Assembly: GCF_009689585.1 (NCBI RefSeq)
Contig: NZ_AP018694.1
Location: 496,001-560,000 of the forward strand
Length of the DNA stretch: 64,000 bases
From: Aquipluma nitroreducens
Lineage (GTDB): Bacteria; Bacteroidota; Bacteroidia; Bacteroidales; Prolixibacteraceae
Reading direction: 5' to 3'
Part shown: in pieces, positions 27,781 to 55,371 of the stretch
Position numbering within the stretch: the stretch's first letter is position 1
Layout of the letters: each line of letters begins with the position of its first letter
Made by a program: the position numbers and the translations under genes
The notes under the pieces: generated by a model
Told to the model about the DNA's origin: nothing
The model's input: only the letters and a program-made list of their open reading frames with translations
Database searches by the model: none

Positions 27781-28629
27781 TTAAGGAGTTTGAAATTTGT
27801 CATCTTCATCGATCCTGCGTTTCAGAATGGCTTTCAGATGATCCAAAAACTTGGCTTTTTCAACCTTCCGCTGCTTGATTTCTATATAGAATTTGTAAAT
27901 GTCTTTTGTTACATCCACATTGAAAATATACCCCATCGCTTCGGCCAATTCTTTGATCGTAGTATTGCCGTCGTTGACTGCATTCGAAAAATGAATTGAG
28001 TAAAGTATTTCGGCAAAGTCAATTTTATTTCCAGTCCAACGCAGGGTCGACTTAAAGATTTCCGTAGTCTCTTTACCTGAGCTTTCTAGATGTTCCATCT
28101 CTTTTCGGAGATAATCCATCAGCATTTCATTGGATCTGATTGTCGAGAATGTGTGGTCATGCCATGTAAAGAAGTCTTCATCCAACAGGTGTTGGTCTCC
28201 CCGAATTTCCATCGGGATTTCATTGTTTTCACGCACAAAATACTTCTCGTCAAGATGCTTGAAATTGCACTTGTAATACTGGACTTTCGGCTGGTGCTTA
28301 TCCATGTATTCCTTGATTTTGTCCATTTGCTGCTGAAAATACTTCTTCTGCCCTTTTATGTCTATTTCATTACGATTGGACTCAATTTCAAAAACAGCCC
28401 GATAGTATAACAGCTTGCTGTAAACCGCCGGTTTGATCTTCTTGAAAAAGTATATTTCCAACTTCTGGTCGGGAAAACCTTCACTAACCACAAGTTTGCG
28501 CATTCGATCCAGTGCTACCTTGCACTGCCCGACGGCATACTCCAATTGTTCCGGTACGCTTTCCGAAACGTCTTTCATCCGGGACAGGTCATTCTCTAGG
28601 TCCAAGATGATTTCACAACATGCTTCCAT
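27781..28629 (-). CDS. rteC: RteC-family regulator
   Basis: The 282-residue protein matches RteC of Bacteroides tetracycline-element transposons: CEIILDLENDLSRMKD at the start, AVGQCKVALDRMRKLVVSEG near 30-50, IYFFKKIKPAVYSKLLYYRA near 60-80, then YYKCNFKHLDEKYFVR and FFTWHDHTFSTIRSNEML. The C-terminus (about 195-282) has KIDFAEILYSIHFSNAVNDG, a winged-helix-like region. RteC controls excision and, through RteR, transfer in CTnDOT. This copy is full length. No rteA/rteB two-component pair is seen nearby. A truncated paralogue lies at 38435-38955 with the same leader. Confidence 0.92.
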   Translation of the reverse strand: MEACCEIILDLENDLSRMKDVSESVPEQLEYAVGQCKVALDRMRKLVVSEGFPDQKLEIYFFKKIKPAVYSKLLYYRAVFEIESNRNEIDIKGQKKYFQQQMDKIKEYMDKHQPKVQYYKCNFKHLDEKYFVRENNEIPMEIRGDQHLLDEDFFTWHDHTFSTIRSNEMLMDYLRKEMEHLESSGKETTEIFKSTLRWTGNKIDFAEILYSIHFSNAVNDGNTTIKELAEAMGYIFNVDVTKDIYKFYIEIKQRKVEKAKFLDHLKAILKRRIDEDDKFQTP

Positions 28630-28641
28630 AGCTAAAATTTA

Positions 28642-28712
28642 AACTGTTAATATTTGGGCTTCTGTAAAGCCCGTTAATAATTTTCGCCCATCCACCAGAT
28701 TCTATAACAGTT
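28642..28712 (-). promoter_or_regulatory. Conserved rteC leader with hairpin and inverted repeat
   Basis: AACTGTTA (28642-28649) and TAACAGTT (28705-28712) are exact reverse complements. Between them is a hairpin, GGGCTT 28656-28661 with AAGCCC 28667-28672 (5-nt loop). The truncated rteC copy has the same layout with a compensatory change in the stem, which argues for selection on the structure. Confidence 0.65.
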
Positions 28713-28978
28713 CAATTTCCCTAACCTGTAAATGCATTTTATGTTTAATTAGATAGTCAATAAACAATTTAAATTTTCAAGTTTAAGTATGAAAAATGGA
28801 ATAATGTCGTATTTCGTTTTTCGCTCTTCCTTTAAGGTCAAAGGATTTAGCGTTTATGAATACAACAATAAATAGTTCTTATTACTTAATATGATTTCAC
28901 AATACTATTTTTCCTATTGGAAATAGTGGTTATTAAAAGTTTCTTACAACATCGTCAAGCAAAAGATTATTAAATCGT
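28713..28978. other. Spacer between rteC and the first glycan locus
   Basis: A+T rich, no gene seen. A bulged hairpin at 28904-28927 (ACTATTTTTCC / GGAAATAGT) about 50 nt past the DUF1080 gene could end its transcript, but it lacks a T-run on the minus strand. Confidence 0.4.
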
Positions 28979-29791
28979 TCAAAACAGGGGATGAATCTTA
29001 ATGTTTCGGAACCACACGTCATTTCCATGGTCCTGCAGAGCGATTATACCTTCTTTGTTAACATTTGTCCAATCGGGATTAAGCCGTGGAAACTTCGAGC
29101 CTCTTACGAGTTCATTCCATTCGGGTGTCCATAAATGGTATTCGACAACTACTTCACCATTCATTTTATGAATTACCGTTCCCTGATAACAGATAATTTC
29201 GACACTGTTCCATTCTCCTGCTGGTTTTGCGTTTTGAGGATTAGCGGAAATCAGGTCATATAACGAACCTGCTTTACGGTTGCCGTCTTTCCCCAACAAC
29301 GCATCTGGGTGTCGATCATTGTCTAGTACTTGCATCTCAGGAGCTGTTTTGTAAATAGGCCAGCCTTTAACTTCTTTTCCCAGATAGAAAATGCCTGAGT
29401 TTCCACCTTCTGAGATTTTCCACTCCAGCTTCAGATCAAAATTGGAAAACATTTGTTTGTCATAAAGGATGTCACCACCGTTGGCAGCACCCGGCTCACC
29501 TCTTCCGGATGCCTGGCATTTCAGACAACCGTCTTCGATAACCCATCCTGAAGGGAAATCGGGTCTGTTGTTTCCTCTCCATCCTTCGCTGGTGGAACCA
29601 TTGAACATCAGTATCCAACCCTGAGCTTTTTCATCTTCAGTTAGTGAATTCAACAAACCAATTTCAGCATTAGCGCTTTTTAGTGTGTCTGTTCCAACTG
29701 CTTTTACCAGATCGACTTTTGTAGACTGTATTTTGAAACTGGCGAACAAGAAAGCTGTTGCCAATAGTATTAAAATTGTACTTTTATTCAT
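28979..29791 (-). CDS. Exported DUF1080 (3-keto-disaccharide hydrolase-like) protein
   Basis: The 270-residue protein has an N-terminal hydrophobic signal (ILILLATAFLFASFKI) and a single DUF1080 domain, a concanavalin-like fold. Motifs include GWILMFNGSTSEGWRGN, NFDLKLEWKISEGGNSGIFY, EMQVLDNDRHPDA and the end GIIALQDHGNDVWFRNIKI. Family members hydrolyse 3-keto-glycosides or bind glycans and act in the periplasm or outside. It is the last gene of the first SusCD locus, 36 nt after the PHP gene. The exact substrate is not readable from sequence. Confidence 0.88.
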   Translation of the reverse strand: MNKSTILILLATAFLFASFKIQSTKVDLVKAVGTDTLKSANAEIGLLNSLTEDEKAQGWILMFNGSTSEGWRGNNRPDFPSGWVIEDGCLKCQASGRGEPGAANGGDILYDKQMFSNFDLKLEWKISEGGNSGIFYLGKEVKGWPIYKTAPEMQVLDNDRHPDALLGKDGNRKAGSLYDLISANPQNAKPAGEWNSVEIICYQGTVIHKMNGEVVVEYHLWTPEWNELVRGSKFPRLNPDWTNVNKEGIIALQDHGNDVWFRNIKIHPLF

Positions 29792-29827
29792 TGTTTATTT
29801 ATGTTACTAACAAAATAAGATGCGTTT

Positions 29828-30898
29828 TTAGTCTTTTATGAATGTCAATTTTATTTTTAGTTTCTCGTTTGAACGGATCATGACATTCTCTACCTCATAT
29901 TCGAGTATGGATGTGCTATCGGAAGGAAGTGCGAATATTGCAGATTCCTTGGCTCCAAGCTGAATAGATGCCGAACTTTTATCCTGATTCATAGGGTTTA
30001 ATATGTATGGAATGTCGCTGGTATTCGAGATACTCACAGAAGCATTTCTGCTAATGTCGTGGTGTATTTTCCCAATTTGAATTGATTTCAGGAATAGCTC
30101 TTTGACCAGTTCTTCTTTTCCATAGATCACATTCCTAAAAAAACCAACCGTCCGTCCTGCGATCAATGCTTCTTTGATTCCATCGATAGATCTTTCCCGG
30201 GCAAAGACCAAGGTCATCGGGCGGCGAGCCATGTGCAACTGACTCAGATACAAGGCACTTTCGTTATGAATATCGGTTGCGCTGAATATCGTCATATTTT
30301 TATTTAGTGCCCAATCGAAAGCTCTTGGATAATAATCATTCCAGTTAAAGATTTCAATTCCCTGAAAGAGGTTTTCCCGAAAAAGTTCGTCAAGTTCTTT
30401 ATACCACCATTCGCCGCCATTGGGGACAGCCTCACGGGGATGGTTTAAAATCACAAAAGCCCCTTGTTTATTAGCTTCTTCAATGGCTTTTTTATAATCG
30501 TCATTTGCAATTTTGGTAGCATCTTTAATGAAAAGTGCATTAAAATGTCCTGGCATTTTTTTTGTAATTTCAGTTCCGTGAATAAGCAGAATATCCTTTT
30601 GGGCAGCAATTCCTTTCGCAATGTCATATCCTGCATTGTGATCGACTTTTAGGTAATTGCTGTGTGGGGTATATTCCAAATGGTCGGTAATGGCAATAGC
30701 ATCCAGCCCATCGTTCCAGGCTTCTTCAACTCGTTCTGTTGGCCATACAACCCCATCGGAGAAGGTTGTATGAATATGTAAATCGCATTTTAGAATTCTA
30801 TAGCCGTTAAGGTCAGGAATATAAAAATTCTTCCGGGTTTGGGAATGGGTTACTAATGCTATAAGCATCAGTAGGCATCCAAAGAATGCATTTTTCAT
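29828..30898 (-). CDS. Exported PHP-domain metallophosphoesterase
   Basis: The 356-residue protein has a signal peptide (about 1-19) and a PHP domain. Metal ligands are visible in CDLHIHTTFSDG near residue 40, AIAITDHLEY near 75, an HGTEI motif near 110, FVILNHP near 155 and FSATDIHNE near 215. PHP enzymes remove phosphate from small esters. Being exported and within a SusCD locus, it probably dephosphorylates imported or surface glycans. The C-terminal 110 residues are a beta-rich extension. Confidence 0.87.
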   Translation of the reverse strand: MKNAFFGCLLMLIALVTHSQTRKNFYIPDLNGYRILKCDLHIHTTFSDGVVWPTERVEEAWNDGLDAIAITDHLEYTPHSNYLKVDHNAGYDIAKGIAAQKDILLIHGTEITKKMPGHFNALFIKDATKIANDDYKKAIEEANKQGAFVILNHPREAVPNGGEWWYKELDELFRENLFQGIEIFNWNDYYPRAFDWALNKNMTIFSATDIHNESALYLSQLHMARRPMTLVFARERSIDGIKEALIAGRTVGFFRNVIYGKEELVKELFLKSIQIGKIHHDISRNASVSISNTSDIPYILNPMNQDKSSASIQLGAKESAIFALPSDSTSILEYEVENVMIRSNEKLKIKLTFIKD

Positions 30899-30971
30899 GT
30901 GTTGATAATAAAATGATTGGTGTCAGGGAAAAACTGGCACCAATCGGATTTATAAATTAATGGCATGTTAA

Positions 30972-32528
30972 TTAATTCCAGCCGGAATAATAGACGCTGT
31001 TCGTCATTTTTTTATTGATGTCCAACTCATCGGTTGTAATTGGAAATTTATTGTGTTTTTCCTGATAAGGGGTTCCCTCGCTTTGTGCTGATTTTTCAGG
31101 ATTTAAAGTCGAAACCAATTCTCCCCAACGGATTAAGTCGAAGAAACGGACTTGTTCGCCGCTAAGCTCCAACCTTCTTTCCCGTTTTAATATCGTCATT
31201 GGAGTACTCCCCAAGCTAGTGTATTTCTCTGCTCCTGAACGCTCCCGAACTTGGTTGATCAGGGTCAAGGCTCCTGATGTATTTCCTGTCTGAATCATGC
31301 ATTCAGCCCTCATTAAAAGTACGTCGGCGTACCTAAGCACTCTTGTATTAATTGGGCTACAGGGTTTCCCTTCTTTCTCCTGTGTTTCATACCTTTGATA
31401 TTTCTTCCATGCATAACCTTTTGTTGCAAATGGATATGACTGTTCATTATTAGCAGCCGTTGCACTGTAATACGTTGTGTCGCCACCGCTTGCGGCATTT
31501 CCATAAAAAGTGTAGAATGCCCTTGGATCAACATAACTATGCTCGTTGATGGTGTATTTAAACGATTCAACGCAAGAGTTTGATACATAGACATTAAACC
31601 AATCATTGAACCCATATTCCATGGCGCGTCCGGTGACAGCCTGAGCAACTCCATACTCTTGCGACCCGAACATGTACCAGACAGATCCAGACTTATTGTA
31701 GGCATGTTGCACTTCAAATAATGATTCTACATTGTTGTCGCCAGCCTCAGTATTATTGTCCGAAAACTTAGGGGCTAAAGCATAGCTATAAGGTGTGGTT
31801 GCCAGTTTCGCAAATTCGGCTTCTGCCAGGGCATAACTCTTTTGCCACAAGTAAAGCTGGCCACGTAGAGCAATGGCAGCTCCGCGGGTAACCCGGCCTT
31901 TATTGGCGGTACTCCAAGAGACTGGGAGGTCGGCTTCTGCATCTTTAAGTACTTCCAGAATATAATCGACAACTTCTTGTTCTGTTCCTGCTCGAGCGAA
32001 GTCATTAATAGCCATATCATCAATTGTTTTTCTCAATGGGATCACCCCCCATAACCGATATAGAGTAAAATACGACCATGCTTTTAAGAAGCTTGCCTCA
32101 CCAACGGTATTGTTTTTAACCGTAGTCTCATCGGTTGTGGTGGGCGTAAATTCGTTACTTTTATCAATGGCAATGGTCGAGCGCAAAACAATTCGGTAAA
32201 GGCTTCTCCACAAGTTTTGGATTTCACTGTTTGTTCCGTCGTATGATAATGCAGGCAATTGTCCCATAGAACCCGTTCCAACCATTGCAGGGGCAGCTTT
32301 TGCGTCGTTCCCCAGCATGTCGTGGTAAAAATACCATTCCCTTGCAAATAACCCGATTTGATAAAATCCGCAATAAGCGGCTACAACAGATTCCTGGAGT
32401 TGGCTTGCTGTTGTGAAATAGCTGTCTTCCGTATAACTATTTTGATTTTCTAAGTTCAAAAAATCTTCATTACATCCTATTATTCCTAATAAAAGGATTG
32501 CTGTGGCAATAACTATTTTGTGTCTCAT
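30972..32528 (-). CDS. SusD/RagB-family glycan-binding lipoprotein
   Basis: The 518-residue protein starts with a lipoprotein signal (lipobox LGIIGC, Cys near 19) and NEDFLNLENQNSYTEDSYF, the SusD N-terminus. A TPR-like region around 180-250 contains RGAAIALRGQLYLWQKSYAL. The SusD end RVLRYADVLLMRAECMIQTG, then RERRLELSGEQVRFFDLIRWG, is present. It caps the SusC transporter and binds the glycan at the cell surface. It lies 23 nt after SusC, the normal pairing. Confidence 0.95.
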   Translation of the reverse strand: MRHKIVIATAILLLGIIGCNEDFLNLENQNSYTEDSYFTTASQLQESVVAAYCGFYQIGLFAREWYFYHDMLGNDAKAAPAMVGTGSMGQLPALSYDGTNSEIQNLWRSLYRIVLRSTIAIDKSNEFTPTTTDETTVKNNTVGEASFLKAWSYFTLYRLWGVIPLRKTIDDMAINDFARAGTEQEVVDYILEVLKDAEADLPVSWSTANKGRVTRGAAIALRGQLYLWQKSYALAEAEFAKLATTPYSYALAPKFSDNNTEAGDNNVESLFEVQHAYNKSGSVWYMFGSQEYGVAQAVTGRAMEYGFNDWFNVYVSNSCVESFKYTINEHSYVDPRAFYTFYGNAASGGDTTYYSATAANNEQSYPFATKGYAWKKYQRYETQEKEGKPCSPINTRVLRYADVLLMRAECMIQTGNTSGALTLINQVRERSGAEKYTSLGSTPMTILKRERRLELSGEQVRFFDLIRWGELVSTLNPEKSAQSEGTPYQEKHNKFPITTDELDINKKMTNSVYYSGWN

Positions 32529-32551: not shown

Positions 32552-35500
32552 TTAAAATCCTAATTCTAATCCAATCATAACCGTTTTAGGATTTGGAACT
32601 AATCCAACATCAATCCCTCTGTTCAGGTTATAGCTATTCGCGTTACCAGGATCGTATGATGATATTTCAGGATCGTAACCTTTTTTATATTTGGTGAATG
32701 TAAGCAGGTTTTGTCCTGATAGGTAAACTTTTAAGTTTGATCCCGGATCAAGTTTGATTCGGCGAAGGATGTTTGCCGGAAGCGTATATCCAACCGAGAT
32801 GTTGCGCATTTTCAGATAAGAGCCATCGCAAACATAGCGGTCGGAAGTCCTCATATTGTTGTTCGGGTCACCACTGATTGCCCTTGGCATATTCGTGTTG
32901 GTGTTTGTCGTGGTCCAGCGGTTCAATACTGCGGAGGAATGGTTTTCGGTAATCCTCATTCCTTCCAGATACCAGGTGTAATAGGCACTATAAATATCAA
33001 CATCTTGTACACCTGAGAAACTGGTCGAGAAATCGAAGTTCTTGTAAGAAAGATCAATAGCGAAACCATACGAATACTTAGGGATAGGGTTGCCTATGTA
33101 TGTGCGATCCTTGGTATCTACATAGCCATTTCCGTCCAGATCTTTAAACCGGATATCGCCAGCTGCGGTCAGATTACTTTGATAATAGTTGATGCTCCCT
33201 TTTGAGAGGGAAACTGCATTGGCATTGTCAGTATCAATTTCAGACTTGCCGGCATAAACTTTATCAACTTTATATCCATAAAAAGAACCAATCGGGTGGC
33301 CAATATCTGTAAGGGTAATGGCCGCTTGTCCTTGATAGGTAGTGCCTTGGATGGCAACCCCATCACCAAGTCCGGTAACTTTGTTGGTCACATAGCTAAG
33401 GTTTGCCGAAATGTTGTATTTAACTTCTCCGATATTTCCGGCATAGCTTGTTGCAAATTCAATCCCCTTGTTGGTGGCTGATGCCGCATTGGCAACACGG
33501 CTACCGCCAGATCCGCCTCCGGCTAGACCCAATCCCATTGATGGCGAAGTTGGTACGGTTACCAAAATATCATCGGTGGTTTTGTCGAAATAATCAACGG
33601 TGAGAGATAGCCTGTTTTTAAAGAAGCCCATATCCAACCCAATGTTTTTTGTTGTGGCTTCTTCCCACCTGATGTCGGGAGAGGCCAGCGCTTTGATAGT
33701 TGTGCCAGTCAGCCATGTCTCAGAAGTGGATGTCCCGACAGGATAGGCAACCCCTTGATTATGGGTATAAGAAGTGTATTGAAAGGAGCCAATGTTTGAA
33801 TTCCCGTTTTTGCCCCAGCCCAAACGAAGTTTTAAATTGTTGAATGCGGGAAGGTTGTCTTTTACGAACTTTTCTTCAGTCATTTTCCAGGCTACCGATA
33901 AGGCTGGGAATTTACCCCAACGGTTGCTTGGGGCAAAACTTGCAGAGGCATCAGCCCTGACAATGGCCGTCAATAAATACTTGTTTAAAAAGCTGTAGTT
34001 TAACCTGGAAAAATAGGACAAGCCAGCCGATTCGCCTACACTTTCGGATGATACGGTTGATGTACCGGCAAGCTTAACGTTGGTTAATTCCTCATTAGGG
34101 TAATTTTGTGCATATATGGAAGCACTTCTGCTTTTTCCCCAACGCGATATGGACATACCTCCAAGTAACGTAATATTGTGTTTGCCAATACTTCTGACAT
34201 ATGTTAATGTTTGTTCCAACATGGGATTTATTCCCCACGAATATGTTTCGGTATATTGATTTGAATAGGTTAGGTTTCCATTTTCATATTTCTTCTGGAA
34301 AGTGCCGGTATGACCATAGCTAGTATTGATACCCAAACTAGTGTAATAAGTCAAACCTTTCATTAATTCGACCGAACCATAGATATTCCCAAACACCATT
34401 AGGTTCTTGTTAGTGTTGTCGTTATAAGCCACGGCTGTGATAGGATTTCCCGCATTGTTGTTGTCGTTTACATTGTTGCAATTACCATATCCCCACCAAT
34501 TGTTGCTATCGTAAACCGGGACGTAAGGCGGCATGATCAGGGCGCTAGTAATCGACCCGACATTTTCGTCGCGGTTGACATACGAAAAGTTTATATTCTC
34601 CCCGATCTTGATTCTTTTGCCGATCTTGAAGTCGGAGGCCAGGCGCATGGTGTATCGCGCAAAATCTCCCCCATAAACAATTGGTTCAGAACTTGAATAT
34701 CCTAACGAGAAGAAAACATTGGAAGTCTCGCTTCCACCTCGTATGCTAAAATCAGCTTCGTAAAGGCTGGCGTTCTTAAATAATTCGTCCTGCCAATCTG
34801 TTCGGGTTACCCTCGAATAATCGTAATTCAAAACAGTTGACCCAACAATTGATGTCAGACTACTTGTAGGGTAGGCTGCTGTTTGTTGTTCAACCAACAA
34901 ATCAACATAGTCGCTTGCGTTAAGCAAATCCAATTTCCGGGGAGTGGAGGCAACGCCATATTGGGCTTTGAAATTGACTTTTGGTTTTCCGGCAACACCC
35001 CGTTTGGTTGTAATCAAAATAACGCCATTTGCTCCATTAGCCCCATAAATTGCAGCAGCAGAGGCATCCTTCAGTATTTCGATATGCTCGATATCCGAAG
35101 GATTGATCATCGACAAAGTATTGAAGTTCGTTCCGCTGCCATTAGTAAACTGAACCCCATCAATGACATATAGAGGCTCTGAGTTGTTGATGGTGCTAAC
35201 GCCTCTGATTTTGATTGACACACCTGCACCCGGCATTCCGCTGGCCGAAGTGATGTCGACGCCAGCGACCCGTCCCTGTATCATGTTGTTGACACTTAGT
35301 GAAGCTGACCTAGGTAAGTCTTTCGTATTCAATGAAGATATTGAGGCGGTGAGATCGCTTTTCTTTTGTGCTCCATAACCAACTACGACAACCTCGTCAA
35401 CACCAATTGTTTCTTCCTGCAAAACTATATTTATTGTTGTCTGGGCTTCAACTTTTACCTCTTGCAGACTCATCCCCACAAACGAAAACTGTAAAGTTGC

Positions 35501-36034
35501 ATTTTCTGGAATTTTAGAAATCGAATATATCCCGTTACTATCAGTAATTGTTCCATTAGTTGTGCCTTTTACAACCACAGAAACGCCTGGCAGAGATGCT
35601 CCCGAGGAGTCTGTCACTTTACCGGAAATAGATTTTTGTTGCTGGTTAACAGATGATATTTCATCATTTTTTGAAAGGGCAATTAAACGGCCGTCGATCT
35701 TGTAGGAGATGTCGGTTCCTTTAAGAATGTCTTCCAAAATCTCAGGCACTAATTTATTTGTAGCCTCAATATCTACGGTCCTCTTAACATCAATAACTAA
35801 GACACTATACATGAAGTAATAGTCGGTCTTGTCTTCAATTAACTGCAAGGCATTCTCAACACTTATGTTCTTTTGATTAATACTTAACTTTACATTTTGT
35901 GAGAAAGTGCCTATCGCGAATGATTGCAACACGCAAAACAAACATATCGAAAAGGTTAGTCTCATGATAAATAACATTTTATGTTTCCATACCCGCGAGA
36001 GTATAGAAACCATTGAACAATGATTTTTTTTCAT
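32552..36034 (-). CDS. SusC-family TonB-dependent transporter with STN domain
   Basis: The 1160-residue outer-membrane transporter has a signal segment. An STN domain for sigma/anti-sigma signalling follows (about 50-125; SVENALQLIEDKTDYYFMYS), then a carboxypeptidase-regulatory-like domain (ISGKVTDSSGASLPGVSVVV near 140). The plug follows (SVNNMIQGRVAGVDITSA, then IRGVSTINNSEPLYVIDGV) and a beta barrel to the end (TKYKKGYDPEISSYDP). The STN domain links it to the FecR/ECF pair just upstream. It is complete, with no frameshift. Confidence 0.95.
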   Translation of the reverse strand: MKKNHCSMVSILSRVWKHKMLFIMRLTFSICLFCVLQSFAIGTFSQNVKLSINQKNISVENALQLIEDKTDYYFMYSVLVIDVKRTVDIEATNKLVPEILEDILKGTDISYKIDGRLIALSKNDEISSVNQQQKSISGKVTDSSGASLPGVSVVVKGTTNGTITDSNGIYSISKIPENATLQFSFVGMSLQEVKVEAQTTINIVLQEETIGVDEVVVVGYGAQKKSDLTASISSLNTKDLPRSASLSVNNMIQGRVAGVDITSASGMPGAGVSIKIRGVSTINNSEPLYVIDGVQFTNGSGTNFNTLSMINPSDIEHIEILKDASAAAIYGANGANGVILITTKRGVAGKPKVNFKAQYGVASTPRKLDLLNASDYVDLLVEQQTAAYPTSSLTSIVGSTVLNYDYSRVTRTDWQDELFKNASLYEADFSIRGGSETSNVFFSLGYSSSEPIVYGGDFARYTMRLASDFKIGKRIKIGENINFSYVNRDENVGSITSALIMPPYVPVYDSNNWWGYGNCNNVNDNNNAGNPITAVAYNDNTNKNLMVFGNIYGSVELMKGLTYYTSLGINTSYGHTGTFQKKYENGNLTYSNQYTETYSWGINPMLEQTLTYVRSIGKHNITLLGGMSISRWGKSRSASIYAQNYPNEELTNVKLAGTSTVSSESVGESAGLSYFSRLNYSFLNKYLLTAIVRADASASFAPSNRWGKFPALSVAWKMTEEKFVKDNLPAFNNLKLRLGWGKNGNSNIGSFQYTSYTHNQGVAYPVGTSTSETWLTGTTIKALASPDIRWEEATTKNIGLDMGFFKNRLSLTVDYFDKTTDDILVTVPTSPSMGLGLAGGGSGGSRVANAASATNKGIEFATSYAGNIGEVKYNISANLSYVTNKVTGLGDGVAIQGTTYQGQAAITLTDIGHPIGSFYGYKVDKVYAGKSEIDTDNANAVSLSKGSINYYQSNLTAAGDIRFKDLDGNGYVDTKDRTYIGNPIPKYSYGFAIDLSYKNFDFSTSFSGVQDVDIYSAYYTWYLEGMRITENHSSAVLNRWTTTNTNTNMPRAISGDPNNNMRTSDRYVCDGSYLKMRNISVGYTLPANILRRIKLDPGSNLKVYLSGQNLLTFTKYKKGYDPEISSYDPGNANSYNLNRGIDVGLVPNPKTVMIGLELGF

Positions 36035-36072
36035 AGTTTTGTAATGATTTGAATTTATGATTCGGATTATTT

Positions 36073-36143
36073 ATGCCTTTAGCTGACTGCAAATTAGAAA
36101 AGGCATGAATTTCAAGAAGGGAGATGTTTACATCTCCTTTTTT
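36073..36143 (+). terminator. Plus-strand terminator-like hairpin upstream of susC
   Basis: GGAGATG (36120-36126) pairs with CATCTCC (36131-36137) around TTTA and is followed by TTTTTT on the plus strand, opposite to the susC direction. A second inverted repeat, ATGCCTTT/AAAGGCAT, lies at 36073-36080 and 36099-36106. A terminator on this strand would end an RNA antisense to the susC leader; alternatively both hairpins are part of the leader. Confidence 0.55.
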
Positions 36144-36179
36144 AGGGTTATTTCATAGGCTTATACTTTTAGTTAAGTT

Positions 36180-37199: not shown

Positions 37200-37287
37200 A
37201 AATAGGTTTTAAAGTCATGAGTAATACACATGAACATCAAAAAACTATTATCCGGTATTAAAATATTTTCAAAAAAAGTGAGAAAAT

Positions 37288-38430: not shown

Positions 38431-38434
38431 TTGG

Positions 38435-44189: not shown

Positions 44190-44532
44190 GTTGTTGTTTT
44201 CATGCAATTATTGAAGATTTTGGTGTGGTTGTATCCCAAATACCTGGAGTTGGTTTTTATTAGATCTACTAATAGTATATTTTTCAAAAAAAAGATTATA
44301 TAGTAAATAAAAATAGACTCCAGTGGCAGAAAATACCTAACGAATAAAATTTTTGTAATAGAAATACAAGGTGGCTGAGAATTATTCGCATTTATTCACT
44401 CTCCTTACCTTAAAGCAAAGGCCACCTTGTTAAAACTGATATTTTCTTAATTCAGTACTTTTAAGAATTGTTGATCCTCAGAACTTTAAAGAAAGTCGTT
44501 TAGGTTTGAAACTTTATGCGCTCTCAAAACGG
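44190..44532. other. Spacer with a 10-bp inverted repeat
   Basis: No gene is seen. ACAAGGTGGC at 44366-44375 and GCCACCTTGT at 44421-44430 are exact reverse complements 45 nt apart. This may be an RNA stem between operon genes or the ends of a small relic element. Confidence 0.5.
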
Positions 44533-47112: not shown

Positions 47113-48684
47113 TTACCAATTTGGATTCTGTCCTAAAGCAGGATTCAATTCTTTTTCTTTTTGTGGAATCGGCCACAAATAATCCCGCCCTGGCCTGAAA
47201 ACTCGCTCAACTGCTGGCACTTCAATTGTTTTTAGAATACCATTATCGGAATAGGTCATTCCATATATCTTCCCTGGCATAACATTTTCAGCAATTCTCC
47301 AACGACGAATATCAAAATATCTGAACCCTTCAAAGGCTAATTCAACTAACCTTTCCTTTCTTACAATATTTCTCATTTCTGACTGAGATAAAATAGAAAC
47401 AGGGGGCATGTTTACGTCATCACGATGTCTAACTTCATTGATTGCGTCTACAACTGTATTATCTATTTTATTCAATTCTATCTTTGCTTCCGCATAAGTT
47501 AATAATACTTCAGCATAGCGTATAAGAATAATATTTATACCACAGTTAGTAGGCTCTGTGAGATCTTCTGAATTAATATATTTCTTTAAAGTGAACCCTG
47601 TTTTAGTTGATATATAGTCATAATCTACTGCGTCAGCTGTACCACTTTGAGGTTTTGAATTAAATACTTTACCGTCTGGCAATAGTGAACCCAACACATA
47701 TACAGAGTATTTTAAACGTGGATCTCTGTTTGCATAGGGATTTTGTGGATCAAACCCACTTGTTGGATCCTCGATATTTTTCCCATTATTCATTTGGTAG
47801 GCATCAACTAATTTATTGGTAGGCACCAATAAGTTTGAGCTTGCCCTTTGACTGTGGGGAGCCATATTGGCAAACATACTATTGCTATAAATGCTTTTAA
47901 TAAATTGCTTATCTAAAATAACCTCCTTATTATTTTCAGCACCATAACTAAACAATTTTTCATAGCTGGGGTATAGGCTATAAATGTTCATGTCTATTAC
48001 TTGCCTTGCTGCAGTGGCTGCCTCTTCATATTTCCCTATATAAAGCATCACCCTTGCTTTTAACGCCAATGCTGCACCTTTAGTAATTCTGCCTTTTTCA
48101 GTAGGGGTTACTGGTAATAATGTTGCTGATTCAGTAAGTTCTGATCCAACGAAATCCCATATCATACTGACTTGTGTTCGAGTTAAACTTCTACTCTCTT
48201 TCAAGGAAATTTCAGAGGTAATTAAAGGAACATCCCCATACAAAAAAGCAAGTCTGATATACATGTATGCACGTAGTACTTTTACCTCACCTTTTAAACG
48301 GGCTATTAAATCAGGACTTGCAGCATCAATTTTATCAACATTGGAAAAAAAACTATTGGCAGCCCTGATGCCAGCGTAATCATTGGTCCATTCTTGTAGG
48401 ACTTTAGAATTAAGGGCATCGTATTGTCCGCTTTCAATCATCGCTTCATTATTAAAGGTCTGATTACTGTGTCCTATGTCGCTCATACCATCCCAACTAA
48501 AAATATCGATACCTTCAAGGTAGGTATAAATTGCATTTGTTGCTAATTCCGCGTCCTTATCAGTCTTCCAATATAAGTCGACAGCCAAGCGATCGTTAGG
48601 AATGGTTTCCAACAATTCATTCTGACAACTGGAGATTAAGATTACCAGTAAAATCATAGTGGATATTATCTTTAGTAAGTTCAT
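47113..48684 (-). CDS. SusD/RagB-family glycan-binding lipoprotein
   Basis: The 523-residue lipoprotein (lipobox ILISSC, Cys near 20) begins QNELLETIPNDRLAVDLYWK, a SusD N-terminus. The TPR-like part has ITKGAALALKARVMLYIGKY near 200. The C-terminal signatures ILIRYAEVLLTYAEAKIEL, RKERLVELAFEGFRYFDIRRW and GRDYLWPIPQKEKELNPA are typical of this subfamily. It pairs with SusC, 28 nt away, at the outer membrane. Confidence 0.95.
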   Translation of the reverse strand: MNLLKIISTMILLVILISSCQNELLETIPNDRLAVDLYWKTDKDAELATNAIYTYLEGIDIFSWDGMSDIGHSNQTFNNEAMIESGQYDALNSKVLQEWTNDYAGIRAANSFFSNVDKIDAASPDLIARLKGEVKVLRAYMYIRLAFLYGDVPLITSEISLKESRSLTRTQVSMIWDFVGSELTESATLLPVTPTEKGRITKGAALALKARVMLYIGKYEEAATAARQVIDMNIYSLYPSYEKLFSYGAENNKEVILDKQFIKSIYSNSMFANMAPHSQRASSNLLVPTNKLVDAYQMNNGKNIEDPTSGFDPQNPYANRDPRLKYSVYVLGSLLPDGKVFNSKPQSGTADAVDYDYISTKTGFTLKKYINSEDLTEPTNCGINIILIRYAEVLLTYAEAKIELNKIDNTVVDAINEVRHRDDVNMPPVSILSQSEMRNIVRKERLVELAFEGFRYFDIRRWRIAENVMPGKIYGMTYSDNGILKTIEVPAVERVFRPGRDYLWPIPQKEKELNPALGQNPNW

Positions 48685-48712
48685 ATCGTTTTCTTAAGTA
48701 ATGTTTTATTAA

Positions 48713-51700
48713 TCAGAAATTTATATTAATACCTAATGCAGTTGATCCGATTTGAGGATAATAGTTTGCTCGTCCGGGTGGTGTTTCTGGATCTAGGTTC
48801 CACTCATTTAATTTAGAGAAGGTAAGCAGATTAGTTGAGGATACATAAACATTAACCTTCTCAATATGGAATTTTTGCGTTAGAGATGTGGGTAACTGAT
48901 ACATCAACTGAATATTTTTTAAACGCAAATATGTCGCGTTGATCATCATCCTATCTGAAGAATTAAAATTTCGAATATCAGAAGTAATTGGCCTTGGGAA
49001 ACGGGCATTTGTATTTTCCGGAGTCCAATAATTATTAGTATAAATCTTATGGGTAAAGGCATTATTGGCCCCCATTTCAACTAAAGCTCCGGCTATTCGG
49101 GTTTTAACATCTGCAGCTCCTTGAAATAAGAGATTTAAGGAGAAATTACGATATGACAGATTAATGTTACCCCCGAATGTATATTTTGGAAAACTATCTC
49201 CCATATAGGTCATATCATCCGCATTAATCACACCATCATTGTTCCTGTCGACATACTTTACATCTCCGGGCTTTGTTCCACCAACGAGAGTTGGATAATT
49301 TCGTATTTCTTCTTCACTCTGAAATAGCCCATCAGTTTCATACCCCCAGAAAGAATTTATTGCATAACCTTCTGCAGTAATAAAAAGGGGATCAATATTG
49401 GAGCCATTAAGATAAGGACCCGTTTCTGCGAGGCTAATTACTTTGTTGTTGTTTATGTTGATATTTGCATTTGCAATAAATCCTAAGCGCCCCCATTTAT
49501 TCCGTGTTTCCATTGATATTTCCCAACCATTATTGTCTACAACTCCTGCATTCTGAGGTGATGCAGTTAATCCAAAAGTACCAGGTACCGGAAGAAGCAA
49601 TAATATTCCATCAGTTCTCTTCCTATAATAATCGATTATTAGGGAAAACTTGTTGTTTAAGAACTGCGCGTCTAAACCAACATTTGCTTGTGTCGTAGTT
49701 TCCCATGTTAAGTTTGGATCAGCCATTTTTTGCTGTACATAACCTTGTGCCGAATTGCCGCCAAAAGTATAAGTAACCGAGTTCAAAACGGGGAAGTAAC
49801 TATAAAGTTCCACAGCTTGATTACCAGTCTTTCCCCAGGAACCTCGTAATTTCAGCTCATTTACATACTTATCCAAATATTTCCAGAATGTTTCTTTTGA
49901 AAGTCGCCAACCGGCGGAAAAGGAAGGATAAAAACCGTATCTGTGTTTTTCCGCAAAGCGTGATGAACCATCATAGCGACTATTGCCTTCAAAGTAATAT
50001 TTTTCGGCAAAGGAATAATTAATACGACCAAAATAGGAGCGCAGACCCCATTCTGCATCATAGCCTCCATTACTTTTAGTATTGTCATTGGCACCCTGAC
50101 CTAGGGATTGAATGTCGTTATTATAAAACTGTTGTCGATATGCAGAAATATAGTTACTGCTATGTTCAATCTGCGAATATCCAGCTAAAATATTTAAAGT
50201 ATGTTTTCCTATAGTTGTTGAATAATTTAGAAGATTATTGATCGTAAACTCACGTTCCATACTTCTTAGTTCATCGAGGCGATTAGGAGATACTGTCTTT
50301 TTTATAATTGTTGGATTGTAATAATCCCTTACTACATAGCTGTTAGCAAAAGCTTTAGTAGCCGAATTCTCTATTTGCGCTGCGAGTTGAGTGCTAAACT
50401 TCAACCCTTTTAAAATTTCCCAATCACCTTTTACGCTGCCAACAACATAATCATCAATAGTTTTCGAAGTTCCGCCAATCTCTGCATACATGAGTGGATT
50501 ATGTCCCTGAGGACTTAAGCCATACGTTCCGTCAGGATATTTAGGCACAGCCCACAGGCTGGAATGTAACATTCTATTGTAAATATTCTCATATATATTA
50601 TTGTCATTTACCAAAGATGTATAAGATGAACTCCGATAGTTTAAGTCTGTAATAAGGTTTATTTTATTTGATACCTTAAAATCGTTATTTATTCTTACCT
50701 CTTTAATATCAGATCCAGAGTTAGGAACGATTGCATCCTGATTCTCATATCTAAGACTTGCTCGTGTTTTGATGTGCTCACTTCCACCACTTACCGACAA
50801 AGAGTGACTTTGGTGTGGGGCAACACTAAAAACTGTCTGAAACCATGTATTTGGCAATGGATATTTGTAACGGTCTTTTGCATTAACATATTCAGAAATA
50901 TATGCTTCAGTGTATCTTGGTGAAATTCCAGCATTTTTATCTCCAACGTTCATCATATGCATATAATCTTCTAATCCCATATGCTGAGGTATATTAATTG
51001 CCTTTTCTAAGGCATAGAATCCATTATAAGCCACAGACACTTTCCCTGACTTTGCACGCTTTGTAGTAATTAACATAACTCCATTGGCAGCTCTTGATCC
51101 GTATATTGCTGTAGAGGATGCGTCTTTTAGGACAGAAATAGATTCGATATCATTTGGATTTATATCGGATAATCTTTGCTCCAAACCATCTACTATGATG
51201 AGGGGGTTATTATTACCTAAAGTTGTCAATCCTCTCACTCTTATTGTAGTATTGGACTTTCCAGGCGCTCCTCCCAAATCTGTTACTGTCACTCCTGGCA
51301 ATTGTCCCTGTAATGCCTGCTGTAGATTGGAAACTGGCCTTTCTGTCATTGCATCTCCTTTAATTGATCCGACCGAGCCAGTTAGGCTGACTTTTTTCTG
51401 AGTGCCATATCCAATGGCTACTACTTCCTCTATGCCTATAGTCTCTTCTATAAGGGTCATATTAATGGTTGTTTTACCACTCACCATAACCTCTTGAGTC
51501 TTCATGCCGACAAACGAGAACTGTAAAATAGAATTTTCAGGAATATTTGAAAGAGTGTATTTTCCATCCATATCAGTAATAACTCCCGTTGTTGTTCCTT
51601 TCACTACAACAGAAACACCCGGCAACGAACCACCGGAAGAATCAGTGACTTTTCCGGAGATGGATTTGGGCTGCTGGGAAGACTCAGTTCCAATCTTCAA

Positions 51701-52084
51701 ATAAGAATTTTCAGTTGATCCCTTCTCAAGTATCGAAATCTGTCTATTTCTTATCTCATAGAAGTTTCTAGTACCATTGAACAATTGGTCTAAAACAACA
51801 TCAACTGTTTGGTTAGTTACATTAACATCGACTTTTCTGTCAACATCAACTGATTTTTCACTGTACAGGAAAATAAACTCACTGGAGTCCTCAATTTTTT
51901 GAAGAACTTCCCGAACTGTTGCGCTACGAAAAGAGATGTTAAATTTGGTTTGTTGCGAATAGCTATTCGCAGCTAGCGTCGTAATTGCAGAAACCAGGAT
52001 GAAAAAACTCAGTAGTTTCATTTTTAAGAGAAATTTTGGCATACAACCCCTACACAGGTTCTGCCTGATTCGTTTTTTTTTCAT
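48713..52084 (-). CDS. SusC-family TonB-dependent transporter with STN domain
   Basis: I choose the ATG at 52084 (1123 residues) because the longer frame to 52177 would nearly touch fecR and place a hairpin inside the coding region. The order is signal segment, STN domain (VREVLQKIEDSSEFIFLYS near 45), regulatory-like domain (ISGKVTDSSGGSLPGVSVVV near 145), plug (RPVSNLQQALQGQLPGVTV, IRVRGLTTLGNNNPLIIVDG), and barrel to the end (WNLDPETPPGRANYYPQIGS). The regulatory-like domain is almost identical to that of the first SusC, showing common descent, while the barrel has diverged. Confidence 0.94.
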   Translation of the reverse strand: MKKKRIRQNLCRGCMPKFLLKMKLLSFFILVSAITTLAANSYSQQTKFNISFRSATVREVLQKIEDSSEFIFLYSEKSVDVDRKVDVNVTNQTVDVVLDQLFNGTRNFYEIRNRQISILEKGSTENSYLKIGTESSQQPKSISGKVTDSSGGSLPGVSVVVKGTTTGVITDMDGKYTLSNIPENSILQFSFVGMKTQEVMVSGKTTINMTLIEETIGIEEVVAIGYGTQKKVSLTGSVGSIKGDAMTERPVSNLQQALQGQLPGVTVTDLGGAPGKSNTTIRVRGLTTLGNNNPLIIVDGLEQRLSDINPNDIESISVLKDASSTAIYGSRAANGVMLITTKRAKSGKVSVAYNGFYALEKAINIPQHMGLEDYMHMMNVGDKNAGISPRYTEAYISEYVNAKDRYKYPLPNTWFQTVFSVAPHQSHSLSVSGGSEHIKTRASLRYENQDAIVPNSGSDIKEVRINNDFKVSNKINLITDLNYRSSSYTSLVNDNNIYENIYNRMLHSSLWAVPKYPDGTYGLSPQGHNPLMYAEIGGTSKTIDDYVVGSVKGDWEILKGLKFSTQLAAQIENSATKAFANSYVVRDYYNPTIIKKTVSPNRLDELRSMEREFTINNLLNYSTTIGKHTLNILAGYSQIEHSSNYISAYRQQFYNNDIQSLGQGANDNTKSNGGYDAEWGLRSYFGRINYSFAEKYYFEGNSRYDGSSRFAEKHRYGFYPSFSAGWRLSKETFWKYLDKYVNELKLRGSWGKTGNQAVELYSYFPVLNSVTYTFGGNSAQGYVQQKMADPNLTWETTTQANVGLDAQFLNNKFSLIIDYYRKRTDGILLLLPVPGTFGLTASPQNAGVVDNNGWEISMETRNKWGRLGFIANANININNNKVISLAETGPYLNGSNIDPLFITAEGYAINSFWGYETDGLFQSEEEIRNYPTLVGGTKPGDVKYVDRNNDGVINADDMTYMGDSFPKYTFGGNINLSYRNFSLNLLFQGAADVKTRIAGALVEMGANNAFTHKIYTNNYWTPENTNARFPRPITSDIRNFNSSDRMMINATYLRLKNIQLMYQLPTSLTQKFHIEKVNVYVSSTNLLTFSKLNEWNLDPETPPGRANYYPQIGSTALGININF

Positions 52085-52129
52085 AACTTTAAAAGGTTTA
52101 TTAATTAAAAACTGTATTTGATAAACTTT

Positions 52130-52162
52130 GAAAACCGGCGGAGGCCTAATTCCCCGGTTTTC
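52130..52162. repeat. Hairpin upstream of the second susC
   Basis: GAAAACCGG (52130-52138) and CCGGTTTTC (52154-52162) are exact reverse complements 46 nt upstream of the susC start. It occupies the same position as the 36120 hairpin before the first susC. A pyrimidine-rich run follows on the plus strand. Confidence 0.6.
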
Positions 52163-52184
52163 TCCTTCTTTAATCATCAGATCA

Positions 52185-53402
52185 TCAATGATTTTTCATC
52201 ATAATAACTATATTTTCATTCGATATTTTGTAATCAATTTTTGCTACGCCAGATAACACACCCATAACTTCAGATAATGAATCCTTTAAATCAAGCTTGC
52301 CCGAAATAGGAAGTGCATTTTCAACAAGTGCTCTGTCATAAATGAATTTTACATTATAAAATCGTTCAAGTTTCCCAAGAACTCTGTCTAATTTCTCATT
52401 TGAAAAATCGTACCACCCATTTATCCATGTTGTGTACATACTGGCATCCGAAATGTTTGATTTAGTAAGTTGTTTGGTGTCATCGGAATATATAGCCTTT
52501 TGGTTTGGTGTTAAATCGATCCTGTCATTAAATACTTTTCCCTTTCCATGTATCTCCACTTTACCCTCCAGCAAAACAGTTTCACAAATATTATCGGATG
52601 AATAGGCTGAAAGATTAAATTTTGTGCCTAATACTTTTACATCAACTTTTGGCGTCGAAACAATAAATGGTTGTTTCTCATTTTTTGAAACCTCAAAATA
52701 ACCTTCTCCAACGAGGTAAACTTCTCTGGTCTTGCCATTAAATGATTGGGGAAATGCAAACTGGCTTCCGGCATTTAGCTGAACTTTAGTTCCATCGGAC
52801 AATTGTAGAGTTACTTTTTTCCCGTAGGGAACGGTGATTTCGTTAAAAGCATTTAGATCTGTTCCTGACTGTGGAATATTTTGAATTATACTGTCATTGT
52901 TCACCAAGATCGCATCTTGATTTTTCAGAACAATAATATTTGATTCTTTATCCGAAGCTAATTCAACCTTCTCTTTATTGGCTAAAACCAATATGGGATT
53001 ATTATCTTTTACTGATTCAATTTTTGAAAAACTATACTTGTTATCGGAAGTGGAGAATCCCCAATAAATTGCACTGCCTATTGCAAATACTATCAAAATA
53101 GAGGCAGCATACCGGATAAAAACATTTAATTGTGCAACTTTTCGCTTTCTTGAAAAATTTGTGTTGAAGTCACTAACGTTTTTCCAGAGATTGAATTTGG
53201 GTTCGTCCCGAAGTCTTCCTTCAGATACTCTGAAGATTTGAATAATTTTCCTCGCCTGTACTATATTGTATTTAGCAGAATGGTTGGCTTGCAGAAAATC
53301 TTCCCATTCTTCATTCGTCTGTATGCTAATTATCTGATTGACGAAATCCTGATCTTCGAGAAGTTCTTCAAGAGAACATCCTTTGTACTTTTCTTCTTTC
53401 AT
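52185..53402 (-). CDS. FecR-family anti-sigma factor
   Basis: The 405-residue protein has a cytoplasmic N-terminus (about 1-95), one membrane helix (YAASILIVFAIGSAIYWGF near 105-122), and a FecR domain (TVPYGKKVTLQLSDGTKVQL, GEGYFEVSKNEKQPFIV, VLGTKFNLSAYSSDNICETV). The C-terminal DUF4974 part ends in DYKISNENIVIMM. It regulates the sigma encoded 54 nt upstream by sensing the SusC STN domain. It is longer than the first FecR by a central insertion. Confidence 0.93.
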   Translation of the reverse strand: MKEEKYKGCSLEELLEDQDFVNQIISIQTNEEWEDFLQANHSAKYNIVQARKIIQIFRVSEGRLRDEPKFNLWKNVSDFNTNFSRKRKVAQLNVFIRYAASILIVFAIGSAIYWGFSTSDNKYSFSKIESVKDNNPILVLANKEKVELASDKESNIIVLKNQDAILVNNDSIIQNIPQSGTDLNAFNEITVPYGKKVTLQLSDGTKVQLNAGSQFAFPQSFNGKTREVYLVGEGYFEVSKNEKQPFIVSTPKVDVKVLGTKFNLSAYSSDNICETVLLEGKVEIHGKGKVFNDRIDLTPNQKAIYSDDTKQLTKSNISDASMYTTWINGWYDFSNEKLDRVLGKLERFYNVKFIYDRALVENALPISGKLDLKDSLSEVMGVLSGVAKIDYKISNENIVIMMKNH

Positions 53403-53456
53403 TTATTGCCTTTTTACATATATAAGGCAACAAATACCAATTTGTGACAAAAAATA

Positions 53457-54053
53457 TCAAATAGAATTGATTTTTTTCAATTCTCTGAAAATGACCAATA
53501 AAATTGAGCCACAATCATCCAAATAATTTTTTAATGATGAAACTGCGCGTGATACAAGCTGACGGGCGGAATCATTCGTAATTGACATGATCTCGCTAAT
53601 TTGTTTATAATTAAACCCACAGTTAAACCTGTAATATAGAATTTCTCTCTGTTTTTCATTTAGTTCACCCATCGCTTTTTTCAGGATGTTTGTTTTTTGA
53701 GACTTTTCTTCTTCTGCGATTAAATCTTCTTCTACAGAGAAAACAACATTGGGGAATATTCCGAGCTCAGAAACTTGCTCTTCCTGCTTTTGTTTTTTCT
53801 GAATTTCACGGATCAATTTTCGTCTAAGCGATTTCAATAGATATAACCGAATATTATCTGTTTCACCCAAATTTCCTTTTTTTCGAATTAATTCATAAAA
53901 TAGATCCTGTATACAGTCTAAAACTAAATTCTCATCTTTTGTAAATTTTTTGCCAAAAAAGAAAAGAGCATCAATATTCTGATAATAAATATACGAAAGG
54001 GCATGATCCTCCCCATTCTTAAATTCTTCCCATATATATTTATCTTCTTTCAT
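53457..54053 (-). CDS. ECF-type RNA polymerase sigma factor
   Basis: The ATG at 54053 gives 198 residues starting MKEDKYIWEEFKNG. An upstream extension to 54161 would overlap the integrase and looks artefactual. Region 2 is ALSYIYYQNIDALFFFGKKF and CIQDLFYELIRKK; region 4 is ELNEKQREILYYRFNCGFNY and SEIMSITNDSARQLVSRAV. It is the first gene of the second SusCD locus and activates it with FecR. Confidence 0.92.
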   Translation of the reverse strand: MKEDKYIWEEFKNGEDHALSYIYYQNIDALFFFGKKFTKDENLVLDCIQDLFYELIRKKGNLGETDNIRLYLLKSLRRKLIREIQKKQKQEEQVSELGIFPNVVFSVEEDLIAEEEKSQKTNILKKAMGELNEKQREILYYRFNCGFNYKQISEIMSITNDSARQLVSRAVSSLKNYLDDCGSILLVIFRELKKINSI

Positions 54054-54129
54054 AAGTAAATTGCAGGCTTCAAATGTAAATATAACTGTTTTAATAATAA
54101 TCAAGTTAAGAACAAAATGCAGGCATTGG

Positions 54130-55371
54130 CTAAATGAGCACGTTATCTTCCTTTTTTTCATTTAGGATAGCATTCAATTTTTTCATATCTGCTGATATTT
54201 TTGAATCCACAATCCTTGCATAAATTTGAGTTGTTTTCAAAGAAGTATGCCCTAACATCTTTGAAACTGTTTCTATCGGTACACCATTGGTTAAGGTCAC
54301 AGTAGTAGCAAAAGTATGTCTGGCAACATGCATAGATAGATTTTTATTGATTCCGCAGATGCCAGCCAGTTCTTTGAGATATTCATTCATTTTTTGGTTT
54401 GAGTGCACAGGGAGCAATTTCCCTCTGTTCTGTGTTATGGGAAAATTCTCATATTTCTGCAATATGGCTTTGGCTTGTGGTAATAGAGGAACTCTACACC
54501 GGATATCTGTCTTGGTTCGGTCAATAATGATCCATTTTCCGCTATCGTTTCCTTGATGGATATGTGTACTGTTCAACTTTTTTAGTTCGGCATACCCCAA
54601 TCCTGTGTAACATGCAAAAATAAATATGTCGCGAATAGTCTCCATTCTGAGGGTACAAATTTCCTTATTCCTGATTTGCTCCAGTTCTTGAATTGTCAGG
54701 TAATCACGGTGGGTCTCGTTACGGGAAACTTTGAATGAGTTGTAAGTATTATTCGAGATCAGATTCATCGCTATGCCCGTGTTCAACGTCTTTTTTAGAT
54801 GTTTATGGTATGTTAAAGCCGTATTTGGTTTTAATTGGTATTCCGTTTTCAGGTAGATGTCAAATGAGTTTAGAAAACTGTAATCCACCAAAGAAAGTCC
54901 AATATCATTCCTCCCAAATTTCTTTCTCAGAAATTCTATAAGTCTTTCTCTGGTTGTTTTGTAGTGCTTTAATGTTCCTTCGGAATAATCATTCCCGACA
55001 CGTGCCTCAATACCTTTGATAATACCATCAAGAATTTCTAATAACCCCTTTTCGTTGCTAATCCCCAGCAATTTATCTTTTACATTTAAAGTAGAGAAAG
55101 GTTCTCCTTTTGATTCCAATTGACTATAAACCTCCTGTACTCTGTTACGGATTTTATTCAACCGGTTATTCAAAATTTTAGATTCTTCGGATCTTCCAAC
55201 AACTTGCTGCCGCTCATCATCCCATGATTCAGGACAAATAAAGATGCTGGTAGATAATTCAAAACGTTGATTGTTCATGGTACACCGTACATAAACCGGG
55301 CATTTCCCATCAGCACGGGATTTCGTTTTCTTTAGTGAAAAATTTACTGTTACTCTCATAATTAGACTCAT
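54130..55371 (-). CDS. Site-specific tyrosine recombinase (ICE integrase)
   Basis: The 413-residue integrase has an N-terminal arm-binding region (about 1-100; NFSLKKTKSRADGKCPVYVR), a SAM-like core-binding domain (about 110-215), and a catalytic domain. The latter shows MHVARHTFATTVT (HxxR), LGHTSLKTTQ and the nucleophile Tyr in IYARIVDSK. The place of the first catalytic Arg reads CYTGLGYAELKKL, with Gly at that spot; the CTnDOT integrase also lacks this Arg. An ATG four codons in (55359) is an alternative start. It lies 277 bp from tRNA-Lys and would integrate and excise the element there. Confidence 0.92.
   Translation of the reverse strand: MSLIMRVTVNFSLKKTKSRADGKCPVYVRCTMNNQRFELSTSIFICPESWDDERQQVVGRSEESKILNNRLNKIRNRVQEVYSQLESKGEPFSTLNVKDKLLGISNEKGLLEILDGIIKGIEARVGNDYSEGTLKHYKTTRERLIEFLRKKFGRNDIGLSLVDYSFLNSFDIYLKTEYQLKPNTALTYHKHLKKTLNTGIAMNLISNNTYNSFKVSRNETHRDYLTIQELEQIRNKEICTLRMETIRDIFIFACYTGLGYAELKKLNSTHIHQGNDSGKWIIIDRTKTDIRCRVPLLPQAKAILQKYENFPITQNRGKLLPVHSNQKMNEYLKELAGICGINKNLSMHVARHTFATTVTLTNGVPIETVSKMLGHTSLKTTQIYARIVDSKISADMKKLNAILNEKKEDNVLI

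Follow-up and report, generated by a model that had tools for sequence, protein, structure and literature searches.

We propose that two glycan utilization loci in Aquipluma nitroreducens (Prolixibacteraceae) were brought together in a composite integrative and conjugative element (ICE) of about 78.9 kb, located at a tRNA-Lys gene, and that this element was probably formed by a deletion between two ICEs, related but distinct, that lay head to tail. The window that we analysed is a stretch of 64,000 nucleotides (G000:C1:496,001-560,000) of the single-contig genome of this bacterium (G000; 5.71 Mb), and it includes all but the left end of the element. We compared it with 139 other genomes from the family (140 Prolixibacteraceae genomes including the source genome). 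G and C numbers refer to genomes and contigs, and positions without a genome label are those of the window.

On the minus strand, the genes are in the order int2-ECF-FecR-SusC-SusD-enzymes-rteC', followed by 'int1-ECF-FecR-SusC-SusD-enzymes-rteC-tra (Table 1), where rteC' is the front of an rteC gene, 'int1 is the back of a tyrosine integrase gene, and ECF is an extracytoplasmic function sigma factor. SusD, SusC, FecR, and ECF were found by Pfam in module 1 and module 2 alike, and each module has adjacent SusC and SusD with a regulator and enzymes, as in a polysaccharide utilization locus (PUL). A preliminary description of this DNA, made from the letters alone, had reported two parallel modules of rteC, glycan locus, and integrase on one strand, with an integrase stump at the end of module 1, an rteC stump at the start of module 2, and an intact integrase beside tRNA-Lys. 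Pfam verified the order and the strand, the partial matches agree with both stumps, and int2 has all three domains of an integrase. What remains is a single attachment (att) pair around two glycan loci, with a full-length integrase that comes from unit 2 and with a full-length rteC and a tra region next to unit 1, each in one copy.

The junction of the stumps

The two stumps are directly fused: rteC2' runs into integrase sequence at ~38,433-38,437. Relatives of rteC align up to this point and relatives of the integrase align from there onward, with the bases ATCC common to both. Homologous recombination between the units is ruled out as the cause of the junction, as the genes on its two sides are unrelated, with no more than about four bases in common there. 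This single non-homologous junction supports the earlier suggestion that the order of the stumps fits a deletion between related head-to-tail elements. Both stubs are open frames. Compared with their closest relatives, their dN/dS values are 0.075 and 0.10, so any decay is recent.

Three rteC genes stop at residue ~172-182 of 282: the one at the junction (38,431-38,955), G028 C219 873-1397, and G072 C115 18745-19305. This shared end may be due to chance or to a domain border.

Our proposal is that two ICEs of one family, each with the order int, ECF/FecR/SusC/SusD glycan locus, rteC, tra, and att, were once adjacent in head-to-tail orientation. A deletion would then have cut rteC of the outer unit at codon ~174 and the integrase gene of the inner unit at codon ~262, joining the two at a microhomology of a few bases and removing the outer unit's tra region, the intervening att site, and the front of the inner integrase. 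In the resulting element, int2 would recombine the outer core sites and excise both loci along with the tra region beside unit 1. RteC regulates excision in CTnDOT, and by analogy RteC1 would do so here. We infer the tandem ancestor, the deletion, and the mobility from these arrangements.

Divergence of the two modules

The two rteC copies are 69% identical over 174 amino acids and the two integrase copies are 68% identical over 147 amino acids. At the DNA level, rteC (610 bp, 73%) and int (394 bp, 70%) are the only parts of the modules that align (blastn, E 1e-3). Within the aligned parts, the SusC, SusD, and FecR proteins are 33%, 26%, and 37% identical, and ECF1 and ECF2 show no significant similarity (E 0.33). 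Synonymous sites of the rteC and int copies are almost saturated with differences (pS of 0.82 and 0.80). The saturated synonymous sites and the dissimilar ECFs imply two lineages and no duplication; in particular, a recent tandem duplication is ruled out, given that the DNA shared at this threshold is limited to rteC and int. The preliminary description had suggested two related ICEs with different glycan loci, and had proposed the divergence of the rteC and integrase copies as a check. The divergence bears this suggestion out.

Boundaries of the element

The core of the att site lies in the 3' end of the tRNA-Lys gene, and its second copy puts the left end of the element at G000:C1:472,782, which is 23.2 kb left of the window. 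A 21-bp repeat, which presumably acts as the arm site of the integrase, also has a copy near each end. Core and arm repeats thus lie at opposite ends, 78.9 kb apart, and enclose the whole two-module stretch. The congener G014 has an uninterrupted site, where tRNA-Lys joins the DNA that is found left of 472,782 in G000 (the flanks are 92.2% and 92.5% identical). Among the seven loci compared, this one bridged both flanks; in the other six, the match was confined to the tRNA side, except for some short hits scattered elsewhere. So the element has the att core repeats of an ICE at both ends, and a relative has the site without it. It also encodes a full-length integrase, a relaxase, a coupling protein, and a VirB4-like ATPase (identified with Pfam and NCBIfam).

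No copy of the core or the arm was found near the ~38 kb junction. An att site between the units, as expected for a tandem or for a cis-mobilizable element (CIME), is thus missing, and therefore the two glycan loci have a single integrase, a single full-length rteC, and a single tra region in common. For the same reason, module 2 is ruled out as a separate mobilizable element. It had been suggested earlier that the second element might be mobilized by the first, but both modules are inside one att-bounded insertion and module 2 would move in cis. We expect the ~78.9-kb element to excise and to be transferred as a single unit.

A serine recombinase gene (named by eye; G000:C1:471,270-472,823) ends within the distal att site and is also present at the uninterrupted site in G014. 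A similar serine recombinase-like gene at 228.8-230.3 kb of G000 likewise ends over a copy of the core. Also, G000:C1:224,699-224,915 has the arm repeat, the core (with one mismatch), and the arm repeat again, as would be expected for an att site that separates two ICEs; no integrase of this ICE family was found beside it.

Related elements, tandems, and scars

The two halves of the fusion are joined in none of the 139 other family genomes (the best three candidates were scored for each genome), and all of the other matches listed cover either the rteC half or the int half. By the reasoning of the preliminary description, relatives that carry the whole block as one stable unit would have spoken against two ancestral ICEs, and no such block turned up in this search. 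It had also proposed looking for single modules next to tra genes at tRNA-Lys, and these exist in G127 C11 and at 5.21 Mb of G035. Overall, the order int, glycan locus, rteC, HTH/rep/AAA, and tra is found in one piece at five loci: G127 C11 and C33, G035 at 5.21 Mb (where the SusC match is weak, E 6.6e-15) and at 7.55 Mb, and G107 C32.

The source genome carries another such element at 5.143-5.215 Mb (G000:C1:5,143,500-5,215,050), which we will call ICE-B. ICE-B combines the remnant of an integrase with a SusCD locus of its own and an rteC (79%), and its distal end bears the arm repeat. Its tra and mob genes are ~80-99% identical to those of the focal ICE and its cargo is different. (The distal end of ICE-B adjoins an integrase at tRNA-Leu(GAG), and G014 C34 has a comparable layout.)

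G127 C11 contains the remnant of a tandem. Its tRNA-Lys core is found at two positions, 11,585 and 88,521, with arm copies on either side of the second core, which is followed by the front of an integrase (residues 1-183) and then by the front of an rteC (residues 1-86). This internal att site shows that tandems do occur in this ICE family.

Other loci have scars of several kinds. G127 C33 has an integrase remnant (residues 354-401, 87.5% identical to int2) between the intact integrase and the first ECF. In ICE-B, the integrase remnant is preceded by the initial codons of a GH92-like gene (tblastn E of 6e-5 and 5e-7 against two GH92 proteins), and an rteC front lies ahead of the full rteC. In G131 C10, a decayed front of rteC lies 174 bp ahead of an ECF1-like SusCD locus; G071 C30 has an integrase remnant ahead of ECF-SusCD; and in G108 C1, the series glycan locus, rteC, HTH/rep/AAA, and one more gene is followed by a second ECF-FecR-SusCD locus where tra would be expected. 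Together, these scars suggest that the fusion in the window is not unique in kind, although each of them could have other causes. Two results weigh against this reading: no SusC was found within the 4-8 kb read beside the truncated or decayed rteC of G028 C219, G072 C115, G035 (5.756 Mb), and G051 C11, and no int or rteC scar was found between the two ECF-FecR heads behind one integrase in G032 C360.

The stretch between the integrase and rteC

By eye, we counted at least 20 pairs of int and rteC on the same strand and within 70 kb of each other, with the focal pair counted once. We read all 19 others listed, wholly or in part (G060 C24, G039, G067, G071, and G036 only partly). In the parts read, a SusC-like gene is present in 14 of the 19 pairs and an ECF gene in 13. 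SusC was not seen in the whole interval of G008, in the 11-13 kb read behind the integrases of G038 C11, G038 C24, and G060 C12, or in either end (the parts read) of G000 321-388 kb, which does have an ECF-FecR pair. In G060 C24 and G036, SusCD is present and an ECF was not seen in the part read. The integrase is broken or a remnant in ICE-B, G071, G036, and perhaps G038. The slot between int and rteC is favored by glycan loci but is not reserved for them. We also considered that linkage of integrase and ECF might be a rule, but this was not upheld: an ECF is directly behind the integrase in 8 of the 33 integrase loci with at least 700 bp downstream, including the focal one.

Tentatively, and with less than even confidence, we suggest that a slot favored by glycan loci, together with head-to-tail capture at a tRNA gene and then deletion, makes a recurrent route for stacking these loci on one transferable element, with the rteC', 'int, and rteC-to-AAA-end scars near glycan loci elsewhere in the family as its footprints.

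G000:C1:311-388 kb holds a more distant ICE-like set, whose integrase is 36% identical to int2 and whose rteC is 33% identical, with TraK/M/N-like genes and the ECF-FecR pair.

Origins of the units and alternative explanations

In a tree of 33 integrases, int2 groups with integrases at tRNA-Lys, and the sister of int1 (support 100/99) is the G012 integrase, which is 89% identical to 'int1 and is sited at tRNA-Arg(CCG). G010 C377 has, at tRNA-Arg(CCT), an integrase (75% identical to int1), an ECF (82% to ECF1), and a FecR (65%) in this order, which is evidence that int1 and module 1 natively belong together. Among 393 genomes drawn from the order (best four candidates per genome), no relatives of int1 were found at E 1e-150 except in the source genome, and in 135 plasmid records, all relatives of int2 are below 60% identity. 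The closest half-match to rteC2' among the matches listed is at 4.56 Mb of G000 (84% of nucleotides). This rteC is one of three, each in a different genome, that face an integrase ~0.7-1 kb away (G000:C1:4.564-4.567 Mb, G014 C34 177-180 kb, and G016 C330 26-30 kb); a tRNA, Leu(CAG), was detected beside the G000 copy only.

Some of these results do not sit easily with two ICEs in tandem at tRNA-Lys. The relatives of int1 and of the head of module 1 are at tRNA-Arg genes, so the site of unit 1 may have been other than tRNA-Lys; rteC2' is nearest to the rteC genes that are convergent to integrases of the tRNA-Leu group, and not to those of Lys-type ICEs; and no genome examined was found to have these two units side by side without the deletion. 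The distal end with its Lys-type core points the other way, to a tRNA-Lys origin for unit 1. tRNA-Lys may or may not have captured both units, and the fusion could have arisen elsewhere and arrived as one ICE. This last scenario, in which the tRNA-Lys gene of this genome never captured two elements, is compatible with the deletion and differs on where it took place, and we consider it a serious possibility, if somewhat short of an even chance. Since G014 is uninterrupted and its flanks are ~92% identical, the insertion either postdates the split or was lost since then, and searches with the DNA of the glycan loci gave only short matches of 66-75% in G014 (best two candidates per genome). However, the fusion was not seen in any of the 139 other family genomes searched.

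The tRNA-Arg relatives of unit 1 would also fit with two ICEs that resided in one cell without ever forming a tandem and were fused by illegitimate recombination, either from different sites or between an integrated and a circular ICE. Modular exchange is plain in this family, as ICE-B shares the tra and mob genes but not the cargo. We think that this is unlikely, because the order and orientation of the genes match the expectation for a tandem, the core and arm at the distal end are of the Lys type, and an internal att site between units is known from G127 C11. Even less probable, in our view, is that a second glycan locus was inserted next to the integrase and that the stumps arose by local rearrangement, without loss of a whole tra region. 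The slot of G127 C33 does hold two SusCD units with no rteC between them, and the doubled heads of G032 C360, with no remnant of int or rteC found, indicate that doubling has other routes. But in the window, the front of rteC and the back of int both remain and are joined together, and even G127 C33 carries an integrase remnant ahead of its first ECF. Deletion between two head-to-tail ICEs is still our preferred explanation.

Other genes of the element

The order of the MobA-like and MobB-like genes is the same in other ICEs; the relaxase (310 amino acids) scores 140 bits against the NCBIfam model for MobB, under its cut-off of 400. Among the Bac_Flav_CT models of NCBIfam, TraG (653 bits, cut-off 262) and TraN (169, cut-off 164) pass, and TraJ (144, cut-off 290), TraM (137, cut-off 172), and MobC (811, cut-off 900) score under the cut-offs. 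The AAA-like, rep-like, and HTH-like genes keep their order behind rteC in G127, G035, G107, and G014 C34.

ICEs of the CTnDOT type have a Bac_Flav_CT type IV secretion system, a tyrosine integrase, rteC, the two-component pair rteA-rteB, and tetracycline resistance. The element shares with CTnDOT-type ICEs of Bacteroidota the TraG and TraN that exceed the cut-offs for Bacteroidetes conjugative transposons, rteC, the tyrosine integrase, and a MobC-like coupling protein. It differs in having a SusCD glycan locus between int and rteC, and in the lower scores of TraJ, TraM, and MobC.

Both glycan loci encode a metallohydrolase of the PHP-domain or CehA/McbA type (29828-30898 and 44533-46605), and module 2 also encodes an alkaline phosphatase. 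The PHP-domain protein of module 1 scores 73 bits against NCBIfam CehA, under the cut-off of 80. The substrates may be phosphorylated glycans. The degraded insertion sequence in module 2 is 80% identical to a stretch within a locus that we call L240 and 81% identical to G000:C1:1,262,540; the stretch in L240 holds an intact open reading frame (ORF) of 255 amino acids that, read by eye, may encode a transposase.

Table 1. Features of the ~78.9-kb element and its target (window positions unless a genome is given).
Feature	Position	Strand	Evidence or remark
Relaxase MobA-like (6170-7102) and MobB-like, 122 amino acids (7138-7506)	6170..7506	-	Pfam Relaxase 1e-21 for the first; the second by position only
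Conjugation region: type IV coupling protein/MobC, TraN, TraM, TraJ, TraG (VirB4-like), others by position	12899..23865	-	Pfam T4SS-DNA_transf, Transposon_TraM, P-loop_TraG; NCBIfam
AAA-like, rep-like (346 amino acids), and HTH-like (98 amino acids) genes behind rteC	24914..26899	-	Named by order and weak Pfam matches
rteC1, full-length	27781..28629	-	Pfam RteC 2.7e-61
Module 1 glycan genes: 3-keto-disaccharide hydrolase, PHP-domain (CehA-like) metallohydrolase, SusD1	28979..32528	-	Pfam
SusC1, FecR1, ECF1	32552..37863	-	Pfam
'int1, C-terminal catalytic stump of tyrosine integrase, residues ~259-405	38009..38437 (ORF 38009-38491)	-	Pfam Phage_integrase 4.2e-13
Fusion point rteC2'::'int1, short microhomology ATCC	38433..38437	.	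Alignment with rteC and int relatives
rteC2', N-terminal ~174 codons	38433..38955 (ORF 38365-38955)	-	Pfam RteC positions 1-116 of 219
Module 2 enzymes: GH92, alkaline phosphatase, CehA/McbA metallohydrolase (690 amino acids)	39498..46605	-	Pfam; NCBIfam CehA_McbA 1.7e-34
Degraded insertion sequence between GH92 and phosphatase	41859..42748	.	Sequence match
SusD2, SusC2, FecR2, ECF2	47113..54161	-	Pfam
int2, full-length tyrosine integrase	54130..55371	-	Pfam Arm-DNA-bind_5, Phage_int_SAM_5, Phage_integrase
21-bp arm-type repeat	55524..55544 (G000:C1:551,524-551,544)	-	Exact copy at far ICE end, G000:C1:472854-472874
attL core CCAGCTGGGTCAC in tRNA-Lys 3' end	55647..55659	-	Second copy G000:C1:472782-472794
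tRNA-Lys(TTT), integration target	55647..55720	-	ARAGORN

Precedents and implications

Both ingredients of our proposal, PULs on ICEs and ICEs in tandem, are already known (PMC6907783, PMC5704250). For gut ICEs and islands, PMC6907783 reports 47 cases of SusC/SusD loci on mobile elements, which our element resembles in this respect, as well as a tandem ICE insertion (GI46), an island formed by deletion (GI73), and the exchange of recombination modules. In PMC5704250, ICEs and integrative and mobilizable elements (IMEs) are described as accreting in tandem at the 3' ends of genes and decaying by deletion. The present case differs from the gut PUL-carrying ICEs (PMC6907783) in that deletion merged two PUL units and left matching rteC and int stumps, in Prolixibacteraceae, and from CIMEs (PMC5704250), which retain their own att sites, in that the units have lost the att site that would separate them and now form one element. 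What seems to be new is the fused double-PUL ICE with matching stumps; among the open-licence papers listed in our searches, no title or abstract opening describes such an element or the int-PUL-rteC order.

The proposed fusion would show one way for bacteria to stack glycan gene sets on a single transferable DNA. The many glycan loci per Bacteroidota genome are usually discussed as transfers of single loci. If related ICEs do stack at one tRNA gene and then fuse, then two or more loci could be delivered in one transfer, and the scars would leave the history of the mergers readable. Also, the int-ECF-SusCD-rteC order is a simple search signature for mobile glycan loci outside of the well-studied gut species.

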